A stretch of 34,464 nt of DNA from Thioalkalivibrio denitrificans (lineage in GTDB: Bacteria > Pseudomonadota > Gammaproteobacteria > Ectothiorhodospirales > Ectothiorhodospiraceae), in assembly GCF_002000365.1 (NCBI RefSeq), contig NZ_MVBK01000019.1, positions 1 to 34,464 of the forward strand, given 5' to 3'. Position 1 is the first letter of the stretch, and every line of letters starts with the position of its first letter. The notes beneath the pieces are model-generated. The model was given only the letters and a program-made list of their open reading frames with translations. It had not been told where the DNA came from and made no database searches. Positions 55 to 34,448 of the stretch are shown here, in pieces. The position numbers were made by a program, and so were the translations under genes.

Positions 55-420
55 ATGAGTTCCGACATGAACGAGGTTCTCAACCCCAGCGCCAGGACCT
101 ACGACGCGGCATTCAAGCACGCCCCGCCCGGATGGACCCGGGAAGACGCCATCCGCGAGGCGGAGGCGGACGGGCTGACGCTCACCAACGATCACTGGGA
201 GCTGATCAGAGCCCTGCAGGAATATTACGAACGCCACAAGGACAGCCGCATCAACCTGCGCGAACTACACGACGCCCTGGACGAGCGCTTCCACACCCGG
301 GGCGGCCGGAAATACCTGTTCGCACTGATGCCCAAGGGGCCCGTGGCCCAGGGATGCCGCATCGCCGGCCTCAAGCCGCCGGCCGGCACAACGGAATCGG
401 GGTTCGGCAGCGTCTCGTAA
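55..420 (+). CDS. DsrC/TusE-family sulfur-relay-like protein with one conserved Cys
   Basis: A 121-residue protein of the DsrC/TusE/DsvC family. The core GWTREDAIREAEADG, the LTLTNDHWELIRALQEYY segment and the C-terminal arm GCRIAGLKPPAG are visible. In the family, sulfur is carried on a penultimate Cys (CysA); true DsrC has a second Cys (CysB) about 11 residues earlier. Here CysB is present (C101), but the CysA position is Thr (T112) and eight more residues (ESGFGSVS) follow. It is therefore neither classical DsrC nor TusE; the family also contains regulatory-type members (RspA) lacking one or both cysteines, and that is my preferred reading. The ATG at 55 has a GGGA ribosome site about 8 nt upstream. 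It stands alone before a 330-bp gap. Family assignment is firm; function is inferred. Confidence 0.88.
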   Translation: MSSDMNEVLNPSARTYDAAFKHAPPGWTREDAIREAEADGLTLTNDHWELIRALQEYYERHKDSRINLRELHDALDERFHTRGGRKYLFALMPKGPVAQGCRIAGLKPPAGTTESGFGSVS

Positions 421-4406: not shown

Positions 4407-5740
4407 GACGCTGGCTCGAAGGCCTCAAGCAGCTGCGCCGCTATCCCTCGGCGGTGCTGGGGATGCTGCTGATCCTGTTCCTGGTGGGCCTGTCCGTCTA
4501 CACCGTGGTGGCCATCCCCTACAGTCAGGCGCTGGACCTCTGGCGCGGCGGAGACCACTGGCGCATGCATCCGGTCAACGCCTCGCCGGTGTGGGCAGAT
4601 CGGCTGCGCGGCGGCGACCTGCCGGAGACGCAGATCATCTCCAGCGACGAGGTCACCGCCCGGGTACAGGAGTTCCCGGGCGGGCGCCGCCTGCAGATTC
4701 CGCTTGGCTTCGATTACCAAAGCAGCGCCTTCCCCAGCGAGCTCAATCTTTTCCTGCGCGTGCACGACACCGAGCGCCCGCCATTCGTGCGTTTCATCTG
4801 GCAGGCACCGGACGGCAGCGAGCAGGTGATCGGTGGCCGGCGCGTGGCGCGCGACGAACGGGTGTCCATCTCCCAGGACTGGGGGCTCGAGCGACGCCTG
4901 GGCCACGTGCCCCATGTGGGCCTGATGATGGACCCCGGATCCGGGAACCCTTCGCAGCCCGAGGTGCTCACGGGTATCCACACAATGCTGCTGGACGTGG
5001 TGATGTTCGACGAGGCCGGCAGCGTCAGCGCCGATCTGGTGGTCTACGGGCGAGTGCACGGCATTGCCGGCACCGACCACCAGCGCCGCGACCTGATGGT
5101 GGCGCTCATGTGGGGCACGCCGGTGGCGCTTGCCTTCGGCCTGATTGCCGCCGTGGGCACCACGGTGACCACGCTGGTGATCGCCGCCATGGGCGTGTGG
5201 TTCCGGGGCTGGGTGGACGCCACCATCCAGCGCCTGACCGAGGTGAACATGATCCTGCCCATGCTGCCCATTCTGGTGATGGTGGGCACGCTCTATTCCA
5301 CCAGTATCTGGCTCATGCTGGGCGTGGTGGTGGCGCTGGGCATCTTCAGCGCGGGCATCAAGATGTACCGGGCCATGCTGCTGCCCATCCGCGAGGCCCC
5401 CTACATCGAGGCGGCCAAGGCCTACGGGGCCGGCGATGCCCGCATCATCCTGCGCTACATGGTGCCCCGGGTGCTGCCGGTGCTGATCCCCACCTTCGTC
5501 ACCCTGATTCCCACCTTCGTGTTCCTGGAGGCCTCGCTGGCGGTGCTCGGCCTCGGCGATCCGGTCCTGCCCACCTGGGGCAAGGTACTCAACGACGCCC
5601 AGGAACAGAGCGCGCTGTACAACGGCTTCTATTACTGGGTGGTGTCGCCGGCGGCCTTGCTGATGCTCACCGGTCTGGGCTTCGCCATGCTGGGCTTCGC
5701 GCTGGACCGCGTCTTCAACCCGCGGCTGAGGAGTCTCTGA
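4403..5740 (+). CDS. ABC transporter permease, DppC/OppC type
   Basis: Second membrane subunit, 445 aa, well above the ~300 aa of DppC. Helix 1 is at about residues 15-40. It is followed by an unusually large soluble insert of roughly 180 residues (about 45-225) and then five helices. The EAA loop EAPYIEAAKAYGAGDARIIL begins at residue 331, and the FVFLEASLAVLGLGDP signature follows. The extra length is concentrated between helices 1 and 2, predicted to be periplasmic. It may contact the equally oversized binding protein; that is inference. It overlaps the upstream permease by 4 nt and is followed after 2 nt by the first ATPase gene. Confidence 0.93.
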   Translation: MRRWLEGLKQLRRYPSAVLGMLLILFLVGLSVYTVVAIPYSQALDLWRGGDHWRMHPVNASPVWADRLRGGDLPETQIISSDEVTARVQEFPGGRRLQIPLGFDYQSSAFPSELNLFLRVHDTERPPFVRFIWQAPDGSEQVIGGRRVARDERVSISQDWGLERRLGHVPHVGLMMDPGSGNPSQPEVLTGIHTMLLDVVMFDEAGSVSADLVVYGRVHGIAGTDHQRRDLMVALMWGTPVALAFGLIAAVGTTVTTLVIAAMGVWFRGWVDATIQRLTEVNMILPMLPILVMVGTLYSTSIWLMLGVVVALGIFSAGIKMYRAMLLPIREAPYIEAAKAYGAGDARIILRYMVPRVLPVLIPTFVTLIPTFVFLEASLAVLGLGDPVLPTWGKVLNDAQEQSALYNGFYYWVVSPAALLMLTGLGFAMLGFALDRVFNPRLRSL

Positions 5741-5742
5741 CC

Positions 5743-6711
5743 ATGACGCAACCCGCCCTGCTGCGCGTGGAGAATCTGCGGCTCGCCTATCGCACCGGGC
5801 GGGGCGTGGTGCGCGCGGTCGACGGCGTGGACTTCGACCTGCGCCGCGGCGAGGCACTGGTGCTGCTGGGGGAGAGCGGCTGCGGCAAGAGTTCCCTGGC
5901 CAAGGCCCTGCTGCGCCTGCTGCCGCGCAACGTGCAGGCCCACGAGGGGCGCGTGTGGCTGGACGACACGGACATCCTCGCCTTGCCCGAGGAGCGCTTT
6001 CGCCGGGATGTGCAGTGGCTGCGCATCTCCATGGTCATGCAGGCGGCCATGAATGCGCTCAACCCCGTGGTACGGGTCGGCGAGCAGGTGGCGGAACCGC
6101 TGATGGTGCATCGCGGGTGGTCCCGTGCCAAGGCCATGGAGCGGGCGGCCGAGGTCTTCGCACTGGTGGGCGTCTCCACGGACTTTCTCGGCCGCTACCC
6201 GTTCGAGCTCTCCGGCGGCATGCGCCAGCGGGTCGTGCTGGCCATGTCCCTGGTCACCGAGCCGGACCTGGTCATACTCGACGAGCCCACCTCCGCCCTG
6301 GACGTGCTGACCCAGGCGGGCATCATGAACGTGCTCAAGCGCATCAAGCGCGAACTGAACACCAGCTTCATCCTTATCACCCACGACGTGTCCACCTCCA
6401 GCGAGATCGCCGACCGGGTGGCCCTCATGTATGCCGGCCAGATCGTGGAACTGGCCGACGCCCGGCACTTCTTCACTGAACCGGCCCATCCCTACTCGCA
6501 GATGCTCATGGCCAGCGTGCCGCGCCTGCACCAGCCGGATCCGCCGCAACACATCCCGGGACAGCCCCCGGATCTGCTGGATCCGCCCGCGGGCTGTCGT
6601 TATGCGCCGCGCTGTCCGAAGCGGTTCGGGCGCTGCGACGAGATGCCGGATTCGATCACCGTCGGCGAGCGCCACCACGTGCGCTGCTGGCTGCACGGAG
6701 CCGGCCCATGA
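5743..6711 (+). CDS. ABC transporter ATPase, DppD/OppD type
   Basis: A 322-aa nucleotide-binding subunit. Walker A GESGCGKSS is at residues 43-51, the LSGGM signature starts at 156, and Walker B LVILDEPTSALD has its catalytic DE at 180-181. The H-loop is in LITHDVSTSS. The C-terminal oligopeptide-transport extension has four cysteines (GCRYAPRC, FGRC, VRCW); comparable residues bind an iron-sulfur cluster in some characterised Opp systems. The start ATG at 5743 lies 2 nt after the DppC-type stop; the preceding CTGAGGAG supplies a ribosome site inside the upstream gene. The end overlaps the next ATPase by 4 nt. Confidence 0.95.
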   Translation: MTQPALLRVENLRLAYRTGRGVVRAVDGVDFDLRRGEALVLLGESGCGKSSLAKALLRLLPRNVQAHEGRVWLDDTDILALPEERFRRDVQWLRISMVMQAAMNALNPVVRVGEQVAEPLMVHRGWSRAKAMERAAEVFALVGVSTDFLGRYPFELSGGMRQRVVLAMSLVTEPDLVILDEPTSALDVLTQAGIMNVLKRIKRELNTSFILITHDVSTSSEIADRVALMYAGQIVELADARHFFTEPAHPYSQMLMASVPRLHQPDPPQHIPGQPPDLLDPPAGCRYAPRCPKRFGRCDEMPDSITVGERHHVRCWLHGAGP

Positions 6712-17357: not shown

Positions 17358-17757
17358 GCGTTCAGGTTAACTCCAATGCTCGCCTCAGGGGACACAGGGA
17401 CAAGGAATGTTCTCTCGCAAAGGCGCGAAGCACGCGAAGAAGATCGGATCACCACATAGGGCGTCCCGTGGGCGCCGCCGCGCCAACATCCATCCCGGGA
17501 CCCGCAGGAATGGCGTCCCCGCCGCGAACATGCCCACGCTCGGGGTGCCAGCAACCCTTCGGCCCGGGGGCGGACCTCCTGCACCCGGCAACACAGGTAG
17601 ACCGCGGATCATGCCCTTGGTATCCAGCGCGTCTATGCTCCTATTCACAGTGACGGTGCGAGGCAGGGCCTCAGGGCGCCAGCCTCTTCTGATTCCGTAA
17701 TTGGTGAACCGGAATGATCCAGTCAACTCGCTAAATCCATCTCAGGCCCAACTCCGC
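17358..17757. other. Divergent intergenic region
   Basis: Four hundred bases separate the binding-lipoprotein gene from the exported unknown protein. I see no gene and no strong promoter. The only structure is a copy of the CGCGAAG repeat at 17412-17441. The in-frame TTG and GTG codons at 17701-17706 could extend the right-hand gene but lack a ribosome site. Confidence 0.5.
17412..17441 (+). repeat. Dispersed CGCGAAG repeat, partial copy
   Basis: Thirty bases match 31825-31854 at 29 of 30 positions (CTCTCGCAAAG, then two CGCGAAG units). It is the trailing half of the longer repeat seen at 31787 and 33206. Confidence 0.75.
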
Positions 17758-18666
17758 ATGCCACAGCCATCAAAGCCGATCGCCACGCTCCTTGCCGCGC
17801 TCATCACCATGTTCCTGCTGACGCCCGCAGGACAGCACGTCCTCGGGGCTGATCGGCTCACAGATATCGACAGAGCCCTTGAAGCCATTGCCGACAGTCC
17901 CTTCGACGAGCCTCTGCATCTCGAGTCCGTTGAGGAGGACGACGGGGTTCAGGGCGACATCCATGCCCTGATGAATATTCCCCATGAAGCCCTGGTTGCA
18001 GCCCTGGCCCGCGTCGAAACCTGGTGCGAGATTCTGTTCCTGCACATCAACGTCAAGGCATGCGTGCATGACGCGGATGATGGTCAACTGACACTGTTCA
18101 TGGGGCCCAGGCGCTACCAGGACCCGGCCGTGTCGGAGCAGATCCACTTCCGGTTCCGGGTTGACCATGCGGACGATGACAGACTGACCGTCTCGCTTGA
18201 TGCGGACCGCGGACCACACGGCCTGCGCGGGGTCAGCATGGAGGTACAGGCCGTCCCGATCGACGAGGACACAAGCCTCTTGCATATGCACTACGCACTG
18301 CGCTACGGGCGACTCGCACGAACGGTGCTTGCCGTGTACTTCGCTTTCCGTGGGCGAGAACTCATCGGCTTCACTATCGCGGAGACCGACGAGGCAGGCG
18401 ATCCCGTTTATGTGGACGGCCTGCGCGGCATGATCGAACGCAACACGGTGCGTTTCTATTTCGCGCTGAAGACCTACTTTCGGTATCCCGATCCGGATCA
18501 GCTTCAGGCACGCCTGGAACACTGGTTCGATCTCACCGAACGCCACCCCGATCAGCTCCGAATTCGCGACCGGGACGATTACCTGGCCCAAAAGGCCAGG
18601 GAGCGGCAGGATCAGGAGGATCTGCAGGCGACAGGGGGGCTTCCGGAAGCGACCGATCCCTGGTGA
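17758..18666 (+). CDS. Exported protein of unknown function
   Basis: A 302-aa protein I do not recognise. From ATG 17758 it starts with a plausible Sec signal (MPQPSKPIATLLAALITMFL, cleavage near VLGAD). The rest looks like one soluble alpha/beta domain, with NIPHEALVAALARVETWCE and a run of beta-type stretches around residues 130-215. A charged, Gln/Glu-rich tail ends it. This layout is reminiscent of START/SRPBCC-like lipid-binding folds, but that is only an impression. The open frame runs up to TTG 17701, giving 19 more residues; I prefer 17758 because the signal peptide then starts at residue 1, although its ribosome site is poor. It converges on the cytochrome gene with a 10-bp gap. Confidence 0.7.
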   Translation: MPQPSKPIATLLAALITMFLLTPAGQHVLGADRLTDIDRALEAIADSPFDEPLHLESVEEDDGVQGDIHALMNIPHEALVAALARVETWCEILFLHINVKACVHDADDGQLTLFMGPRRYQDPAVSEQIHFRFRVDHADDDRLTVSLDADRGPHGLRGVSMEVQAVPIDEDTSLLHMHYALRYGRLARTVLAVYFAFRGRELIGFTIAETDEAGDPVYVDGLRGMIERNTVRFYFALKTYFRYPDPDQLQARLEHWFDLTERHPDQLRIRDRDDYLAQKARERQDQEDLQATGGLPEATDPW

Positions 18667-31164: not shown

Positions 31165-31689
31165 ATGAGCGAGAAGCAGCACGACGAAAAGGTCAAGGAC
31201 CGCCTGGCCCACGCCTATGACAGGATGCTGGAGCGCGTGCGCCACGCGATGGAGACGGCGGAGCAGCGCGCAGCGCCGACGCTGGAGGAGGCGCTGAAGC
31301 ACGCGCGCGAGCGGGCCGTGGAAATGGGCGAGATCACCCGCGAAGAAGCGGAGAAGGTGGCCCATTATGTGCGCGAGGACCTGCACGACATGGCGGAGTA
31401 CCTCAACGAGACCAGCAAGGACTACCGGGACTGGTTCCGCATGGACCTGCAACTCATCGAGGCGAAGATCATGGACCTGCTGGGCTCCATTGCCGACCGC
31501 ACCCGCGTCGAGATCGCCGAGATCGCCGCCCGCGCGGCGATCCGTGAACGCCACACCGGAGAAATCGCCGGCCCCGGCGTACTCGCCTGTATCAACTGCG
31601 GCGAGGAACTGCACTTCAAGACCAGCGGCCACATTCCGCCCTGCCCCAAGTGCAAGGGCACGAAGTTCCAGCGTATCCGGGGGGAGTGA
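31165..31689 (+). CDS. Zinc-ribbon protein, DUF1451/YbeL family
   Basis: A 174-aa cytoplasmic protein. A long charged helical region (about 1-130, with ARERAVEMGEITREEAEKVAHYVREDL) leads to a C-terminal zinc ribbon C142-x2-C145 and C160-x2-C163. This matches the YbeL/DUF1451 family, whose function is not established. GGAGGA about 8 nt upstream supports the ATG at 31165. A long inverted repeat starts 5 nt after the stop and should act as the transcript end. Confidence 0.9.
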   Translation: MSEKQHDEKVKDRLAHAYDRMLERVRHAMETAEQRAAPTLEEALKHARERAVEMGEITREEAEKVAHYVREDLHDMAEYLNETSKDYRDWFRMDLQLIEAKIMDLLGSIADRTRVEIAEIAARAAIRERHTGEIAGPGVLACINCGEELHFKTSGHIPPCPKCKGTKFQRIRGE

Positions 31690-33095: not shown

Positions 33096-33314
33096 ATGCG
33101 CCAGCGCCAGGATCCCGAGGGGCTTCGCCTGCCCGTCAAGCTCGATTCCACCAGCAACGGCGAGTTCGAGCCGGTGCCGCTGAATGATGGCTGTCCTCTT
33201 GTTCCCTTCGCGGCTTTGCGAGAGAAATGCTTTTTCTTCGTGTCCTTCGTGAGCTTCGTGGTCAATATCACCGCCCCCGCAGACGGTTCAGGTGCGGCAT
33301 CAGGGGGTCGATGA
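33096..33314 (+). pseudogene. Truncated gene: intact start, cut off at the CACGAAG repeat
   Basis: From ATG 33096 (GGAGAAG about 8 nt upstream) the frame reads a protein-like start, MRQRQDPEGLRLPVKLDST then SNGEFEPVPL, of about 29 residues. It then runs into the dispersed repeat, which it translates as FFFVSFVSFVV-type nonsense, and continues antisense into the end of dsrS before stopping at 33314. The real coding part therefore ends around 33190-33205. The N-terminus reminds me of uncharacterised amidohydrolase-like proteins, but this cannot be confirmed from 29 residues. It is best read as the 5' remnant of a gene whose body was lost by deletion or rearrangement at the repeat. Confidence 0.55.
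33206..33262 (-). repeat. Dispersed CACGAAG repeat, inverted copy
   Basis: The reverse complement of these 57 bases matches 31787-31843 at 55 positions. It begins 5 bases past the dsrS stop and interrupts the gene fragment from 33096. Confidence 0.88.
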
Positions 33315-34401
33315 CAGGCTCGATGCTCTGGCGCAGGGCGGGGCCGACGGAGTCTGACAGGCCGAAGATGGGGGCGATGAGCTGCTCGCCCACGCAGGCG
33401 CAGACCCGCAGGCTCTCCAGCAGCGGCAGGTCCTCTTCCGGCAACCGCGCCTTGAGTGCCGCCAGTTCGCGGCACAGGCGCGCATCGTTCACGCAGTCCT
33501 CGGGCTGGGCGCAGTATTGAAGCAGCGGCGTCATGTCGCGGTAGCGGACATCGGGCGGTTTGATGGGGGCAAAATAGGCCTCGATGGCCTCGAAGAGCTG
33601 AATCACCACGCCCTGGTCGGCGCATCGCCTGAACACCCCTTCCACGGTCTCCAGCCAGGCCTGCCCCGGCGCAGCCAGCACGCGCGCCAGCAGACGGGCG
33701 TGTTCATTGCCGGTCGCCGCCAGTTCGCCGAGAACAGGCTCCAGCGCCGCGAAGCGCGGGTGGGGCACCGCCTCCACGGGCAAGTCATCGGGCAGAGTCT
33801 TGAGAAAGCCCACCCGGTAGGCGGGCTTGCGCTGGCCACGGGCCCAGAGCTGAGTGCGGGTGGCATCGTCCACGAGTCCCGGTTGCAGCACCAGGCGAAC
33901 GGACTCCACCACCCTCTGGGTGTCCTCCTCGTAGGGTAGAAACTCCACCAGGAAGTCCGCCAGCACCTTGCCCATCTCGCCCCTTGCCACCTGTTCCCGG
34001 GCGAGCATGGCGCGCGCATGGTCCGGGGACTGGTCCACCCACCAGGCATGGCGGGCGATCTCGTCGGTCAGCCCCTCGGCGTGCACCACGGCGGCCACTG
34101 CTTCGGGCTCACCCAGACGCAGCAGCTTCGTGAGACTCTCGGCGCGCGCATGCCCCATGCGCGTCCAGCGGTGCATGAAGCGCGGATAGCCGTGGGGCGA
34201 ACCCAGCACGTGGTTGGAGATCATCTCGCGCACCTGACGCAGGTACTTCTCCTCGGCGCAGTTGGGGTTGAGCGGCACCTTCGCCTCGCCCCTCGGGGTC
34301 AGTCCCGTGACCAGCCGCTTGCCCTCGTCGATGCGCAGCGCGAACAGCTCCTGGTTGAGGAGCACGTTCAGGCGCAGGGCGTCTTCGGGGCTCAGGTTCA
34401 T
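33268..34401 (-). CDS. dsrS: Sulfur-oxidation accessory protein, DsrS-like
   Basis: A 377-aa soluble protein without membrane segments or a signal peptide. The N-terminal block MNLSPEDALRLNVLL, the segments RIDEGKRLVTGLTPRGEAKV and PLNPNCAEEKYLRQV, and VLGSPHGYPRFMHRWTRMGHAR match what I recall of DsrS, the cytoplasmic protein at the end of the dsr (reverse dissimilatory sulfite reductase) cluster of purple sulfur bacteria. Its precise function is not settled; it affects sulfur-globule oxidation. Start: ATG 34401 has AAGG 9 nt upstream; ATG 34407 and TTG 34425 in the same frame are alternatives. The rest of a dsr cluster, if adjacent, would lie beyond the right edge. Family recall is from memory, hence moderate certainty. 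Confidence 0.75.
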   Translation of the reverse strand: MNLSPEDALRLNVLLNQELFALRIDEGKRLVTGLTPRGEAKVPLNPNCAEEKYLRQVREMISNHVLGSPHGYPRFMHRWTRMGHARAESLTKLLRLGEPEAVAAVVHAEGLTDEIARHAWWVDQSPDHARAMLAREQVARGEMGKVLADFLVEFLPYEEDTQRVVESVRLVLQPGLVDDATRTQLWARGQRKPAYRVGFLKTLPDDLPVEAVPHPRFAALEPVLGELAATGNEHARLLARVLAAPGQAWLETVEGVFRRCADQGVVIQLFEAIEAYFAPIKPPDVRYRDMTPLLQYCAQPEDCVNDARLCRELAALKARLPEEDLPLLESLRVCACVGEQLIAPIFGLSDSVGPALRQSIEPVIDPLMPHLNRLRGR

Positions 34402-34420
34402 TTTCATGAACCTTCGCAGT

Positions 34421-34448
34421 GACAAGAGACAAGAGGCAAGAGAGAAGG
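34421..34448. repeat. 7-bp tandem repeat upstream of dsrS
   Basis: GACAAGA occurs twice, followed by GGCAAGA and GAGAAGG: four 7-bp units, the last two diverged, 20-47 bp upstream of the dsrS start. Short tandem repeats in this place could shift promoter spacing if copy number varies. Confidence 0.5.

Follow-up and report, generated by a model that had tools for sequence, protein, structure and literature searches.

Sulfur oxidisers often have several DsrC paralogues, all of which are annotated as 'sulfur relay proteins'. In DsrC and TusE sulfur is carried on a cysteine known as CysA, and in A. vinosum DsrC it is this penultimate cysteine alone that becomes persulfurated (PMC3397948). A functional DsrC is recognised by its penultimate CysA, by a second cysteine (CysB) eleven positions before it, and by a gene that lies in the dsr cluster, while TusE is recognised by a single penultimate CysA. 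That sulfur oxidisers have extra DsrC paralogues is known, though not explained (PMC3368242, PMC10892978): A. vinosum has four, none with an assigned role (PMC3368242), and the expression of such paralogues depends on the substrate (PMC11267869). Viral DsrC homologues without cysteines have also been discussed (PMC4164917, PMC8190135), and among viral DsrC-like proteins the second cysteine motif is kept in 112 of 141, the first alone in 1 (PMC8190135). Here we describe a DsrC-family protein of Thioalkalivibrio denitrificans that is an old, selected paralogue of the sulfur pathway, unable to carry sulfur in the way that DsrC and TusE do.

A DsrC-family gene at the edge of a contig

The window, by which we mean the whole stretch of 34,464 nucleotides analysed here, is one entire contig of the T. 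denitrificans genome (G000:C19), and the gene in question lies at its left edge. It occupies positions 55–420 on the + strand, begins with ATG, encodes 121 amino acids, and is preceded by GGGAG (43–47, + strand), a likely ribosome-binding site 7 nt 5′ of the start codon. The protein scores 62.9 bits against PF04358 (cut-off 24.9) and 59.5 bits against TIGR03342 (cut-off 53.5), which places it in the DsrC family, and its 50.3 bits against the TusE equivalog model, where the cut-off is 191, leave it outside TusE. When it is aligned to A. vinosum DsrC (1yx3), C101 (TGC, 355–357, + strand) falls at the CysB position, and Thr112 (ACA, 388–390, + strand), eleven residues further on, stands where the penultimate CysA should be. 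The chain then continues through T113–S121 (391–417, + strand), ending eight residues beyond the point where canonical DsrC stops. The earlier note had read all three features correctly, and its claim that the protein cannot carry sulfur in the standard DsrC or TusE way also stands, since CysA is absent here and column 112 holds Cys in 0 of 71 aligned orthologues. The protein thus has the CysB of a functional DsrC without its CysA, lacks the one cysteine by which TusE is known, and is encoded on C19, whereas the dsr cluster lies on C100 with a dsrC of its own.

That dsrC, about 2.5 kb downstream of dsrA, has both cysteines and is the canonical copy for which the earlier note had proposed to look; because it already fills the DsrC role, the window gene is no substitute for it. 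There are six DsrC-family genes in the genome. Besides these two, a cysteine-free paralogue (L002; G000:C100:8098-8406, − strand) is divergent from dsrA, starts the list about 2.4 kb upstream of it, and ends in PESRRKGGY; it is kept near dsrA in several relatives. The remaining three are a CysA-only, TusE-like protein on C40 (L003), a CysB-only protein on C70 that ends in WSTG (L004), and a long-branch protein on C14 with neither cysteine (L006). The genome also has a second dsrA–dsrB pair outside the main dsr cluster (G000:C99:4673-6942; locus L119 4646-7011), which scores 579 and 516 bits against TIGR02064 and TIGR02066, lies near a CBS-domain gene, and has no other dsr gene among the family matches in the examined part of its neighbourhood. 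Such a second pair also occurs in some relatives (G013, G042).

A predicted model of the window protein (mean pLDDT 82.8) gave VIA Z scores of 10.1 to 7syb, a member of the DsrC family, and 9.3 to 1yx3. The protein is accordingly predicted to have the DsrC fold. Residues 1–13 and 116–121 have low confidence, and the latter, with pLDDT under 50, are modelled as a loose arm end.

The C-terminal arm and its lineage

Searches of the genomes of the family, and of the contigs of named genomes, returned 91 distinct relatives, from Thioalkalivibrio, Thiobacillus, Thiocystis, Thiorhodococcus, a Halorhodospira MAG, Gallionellaceae, Parasulfuritortus and one Rhodoblastus; all belong to sulfur-oxidising proteobacteria. 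In every one of them the arm, counted from Gln99 to the end of the chain, has 23 residues, against 15 in canonical DsrC, and 82 end in FGSV-x. The tip itself, Phe117-Gly118-Ser119 (403–411, + strand), is close to fixed, with F and G in 71/71 rows of our alignment and S in 70/71, and only one of the 91 relatives departs from Phe (L116, with the tip IGS). Invariant across the alignment are W27, L71, A74, L75, E77, F79, G83, G84, P93, G95, P96, Q99, G105, P109, F117 and G118, while column 112 holds Ala (51 rows), Ser (11), Thr (6) or Val (3).

The earlier note had named two findings that could overturn its reading: a frameshift or sequencing error near 385–420, and relatives that all have both cysteines. 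The first is ruled out by conservation, with the same arm length and an F-G-S type of end in 91/91 relatives, and the second by column 112; the missing CysA (71 aligned) and the tail (91) are common property of the close relatives. A decaying paralogue or a sequence artefact might be suspected from the loss of the catalytic residue and from the position of the gene at a contig edge, and the same conservation refutes it. The arm recurs in 91 distinct proteins, and the gene is under purifying selection, with dN 0.107, dS 0.613 and a dN/dS of about 0.17 to the closest relative, so that we regard decay or artefact as next to impossible.

The cysteine is less constant than the tail. The C101 residue is Cys in 87 of the 91 relatives and Ala in four (68 and 3 of the alignment rows), one of these alanines being in genome G013, which has two copies of the gene. 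Because of these substitutions C101 is not the defining mark of the group, and the emphasis that the earlier note put on the retention of CysB was misplaced. A class-wide profile search brought up a second, sister group at about 84–116 bits, in which all 19 homologues have the same 23-residue arm, ending in F-G followed by S, T, I or A, and in which the CysB site is Cys in 7 and Ser, Asn, Leu or Met in 12. Since arm length and F-G are kept while the CysB residue varies among Cys, Ala, Ser, Asn, Leu and Met, it is the length and the tip that are constrained, and not the thiols. This bears on the idea of a single-cysteine carrier or redox sensor, in which Cys101 would accept a persulfide or form a mixed disulfide and the long arm would replace CysA in presenting it. 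The 87 relatives with Cys101 agree with such a protein, as does a tandem TusA gene that adjoins it at six loci (see below), but we consider it unlikely given the four alanines, the 12 sister homologues that have the same tail without the cysteine, and the restriction of persulfuration to the penultimate Cys in A. vinosum DsrC (PMC3397948).

In the tree, orthologues form one clade (support 100/97), with L021, one of the 91 relatives, placed in the sister group. When the whole C-terminal arm is removed, the tail-bearing rows still fall on one side of a branch (98/93) in trees that are limited by few columns and give the inner forks of the second group no resolution. The tail therefore marks a real lineage whose members have it in common, and is not the cause of their grouping. 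Beside the tail clade stands a DsrC-family protein of genome G335 (L180 / L187 6418-6777) with both cysteines and a short CIDFS end, a possible intermediate to that clade.

The relatives also differ from canonical DsrC in a surface helix. The ELHDALDE motif (residues 70–77; 262–285, + strand) is acidic in the orthologues where the canonical protein has the basic RVLTKAIGKKLG; helix 69–80 has a net charge of −2 or −3 in 88/91 relatives against +4 for that canonical segment, and its charge varies in the sister group. An acidic helix in place of a basic one may mean a changed docking partner. The DsrC family consists of helical proteins, some of whose helices are HTH-like, and the name RspA stands for 'regulatory sulfur-related proteins', said to be DsrC-like without CysA, although our literature search found no definition of it. 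A transcriptional or translational regulator of the dsr genes, bound to nucleic acid through the DsrC helices as the RspA idea would have it, could explain why the window-type gene stands alone, as many regulators do, and the DsrC paralogues of A. vinosum do differ in their response to substrate, by +2 to +4 fold and about −7 fold (PMC11267869). It is quite improbable for a set of proteins with a median net charge of −7, a pI of 5.2 and an acidic helix 69–80, and DNA binding would leave the fixed arm length and the F-G-S tip unexplained.

Distribution and gene neighbourhood

An orthologue (a match over 140 bits) is present in 40 of 369 genomes of the class. The dsrA gene is found in 38 of these 40 and in 79 of the other 329 (Fisher's p 4e-19, which overstates the independence of related genomes as the test ignores shared ancestry), and the same pattern holds within the family. 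Both orthologue genomes in which dsrA was not found are drafts (G231, 81% complete; G139, 90% complete), so the gene may simply have been missed there. Conversely, 79 of the 117 genomes with dsrA have no orthologue, so the protein is an accessory one, and the Dsr pathway runs without it.

ORF clustering over 80 orthologue loci and 14 sister loci found no general operon partner. In the genus of the window, the DsrC-like gene stands alone beside a divergent gene of 880 amino acids, presumably leuS. At 22 loci a GGDEF gene lies within 6 kb, but at distances so varied that this is likely common-gene noise. Six betaproteobacterial loci (L042, L073, L081, L082, L096, L112) have a tandem TusA gene directly upstream on the same strand (about 5375–5990, + strand), encoding a fusion of 2 x PF01206 with two CPGP motifs and ending 7–35 bases from the tail-bearing DsrC gene. 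Such tandem proteins are rare; the seven genomes that have them all contain dsrA and five contain a tail-bearing DsrC, and a search of the T. denitrificans genome found none. As a general partner the tandem TusA gene was therefore rejected, and its adjacency ties the clade to sulfur trafficking locally only.

These six loci could also be read as signs of an adaptor for another sulfur route, such as tRNA thiolation or a TusA branch, with the co-occurrence of dsrA being incidental, and G231 and G139 would then be genomes with an orthologue and no dsrA. The strong link to dsrA, the incompleteness of both drafts and the presence of a separate CysA-only, TusE-like paralogue (L003) make such a role very doubtful.

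The earlier note had also mentioned a DsrS-like protein, probably the 385-amino-acid product of window positions 33268–34425 (− strand). Its link to dsr holds up: of 25 dsrA genomes searched, 24 have it, nine of them on the same contig as dsrA. But it matches no Pfam or NCBIfam model, and its place relative to dsrA varies. In those nine genomes its distance from dsrA is roughly 9–24 kb, mostly upstream and divergent; in G061, however, the gene is on the same strand about 12 kb downstream of dsrA, the place expected of dsrS. In Thioalkalivibrio sulfidiphilus (L183/L037) the DsrC-like gene is followed within 5 kb by genes for a 321-aa protein, a DUF1451 protein and the 385-aa protein, while their window counterparts (17701–18663, 31165–31689 and 33268–34425) are spread over 34 kb, a partial synteny.

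Viral contigs scanned with the family of the window protein contained no relatives, and a viral origin or spread by phage was rejected on this ground. The Mor/HTH family PF08765 has no match in the genome.

Proposed role and comparison with known systems

Our preferred reading, tentative and at a probability of about 45%, is that the protein belongs to the oxidative Dsr pathway as a non-catalytic relative of DsrC and docks on a Dsr or Tus partner, as competitor or adaptor, by means of its length-fixed arm. The core would dock at the DsrC site of the partner (candidates are DsrAB, DsrEFH, DsrMK and a TusA protein), the flexible arm would enter the groove meant for DsrC, and the F-G-S tip would fill a fixed site within it. 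Once docked, the protein, itself no sulfur carrier, could limit or gate the access of DsrC or keep an assembly together, and Cys101, where it is kept, may tune binding by forming a disulfide or persulfide reversibly. An arm that has to reach a set site in a partner would be expected to keep its length and its tip; here the length of 23 residues holds in 91/91 relatives and 19/19 sister homologues, and F-G is kept. The predicted fold with its loose arm end, a dN of about 0.11 against a dS of about 0.61, the association with dsrA, the six tandem TusA neighbours and the coexisting canonical DsrC are likewise consistent with non-catalytic docking. On the other side, the partner is inferred only, most loci have no conserved operon partner, tandem TusA is absent from the T. 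denitrificans genome, 79 of 117 dsrA genomes do without an orthologue, and the docking face, with its acidic helix, may suit a different partner from that of DsrC. The carrier or sensor, the nucleic-acid regulator and the other-route adaptor are each less likely than non-catalytic docking. Of the regulatory or decoy, RspA-like paralogue proposed in the earlier note, the results support a DsrC paralogue lacking CysA, and the regulatory or decoy function is putative.

A bolder version of docking, which we hold to be rather unlikely, makes the tail clade a plug for the DsrC groove, with the arm putting Phe-Gly-Ser into the DsrAB substrate channel or the DsrEFH acceptor site and so either shutting down the oxidative flow of sulfur or keeping the enzyme in reserve. 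If this were true, reverse Dsr would be controlled at the protein level; we know of no description of such control.

One clade among the many DsrC paralogues now has a testable mark of its own, an arm of fixed length that is independent of cysteine and ends in F-G-S. Its members should be neither annotated nor counted as DsrC or TusE, and they suggest that a look-alike of the carrier controls the reverse Dsr pathway or helps to assemble it. No description of the clade was found in the literature searched, which left out most subscription papers and is thus weak evidence of novelty.

Three paralogues of the same genome (L002, L004 and L006) resemble the window protein as DsrC-family proteins without CysA, and differ from it in their arm ends and in the tree, where they fall in well-supported clades of their own or on a long branch. 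Phage and viral DsrC-like proteins (PMC4164917, PMC8190135) also lack the full cysteine pair, but mostly keep the second cysteine motif, which the window protein does not. TusE has the same fold and family and likewise misses one cysteine of the pair; it keeps CysA without CysB, whereas the window protein does the reverse and adds a tail. With canonical DsrC (A. vinosum Alvin_1256, 1yx3; the C100 copy) the window protein shares the fold, the family models, the CysB position, the P-x-G-P..Q and AGL motifs of the arm and the genomes in which both occur, and it departs from it in having no CysA, an arm eight residues longer that ends in F-G-S, an acidic helix 69–80, and the first 10 positions of the Pfam profile unmatched.
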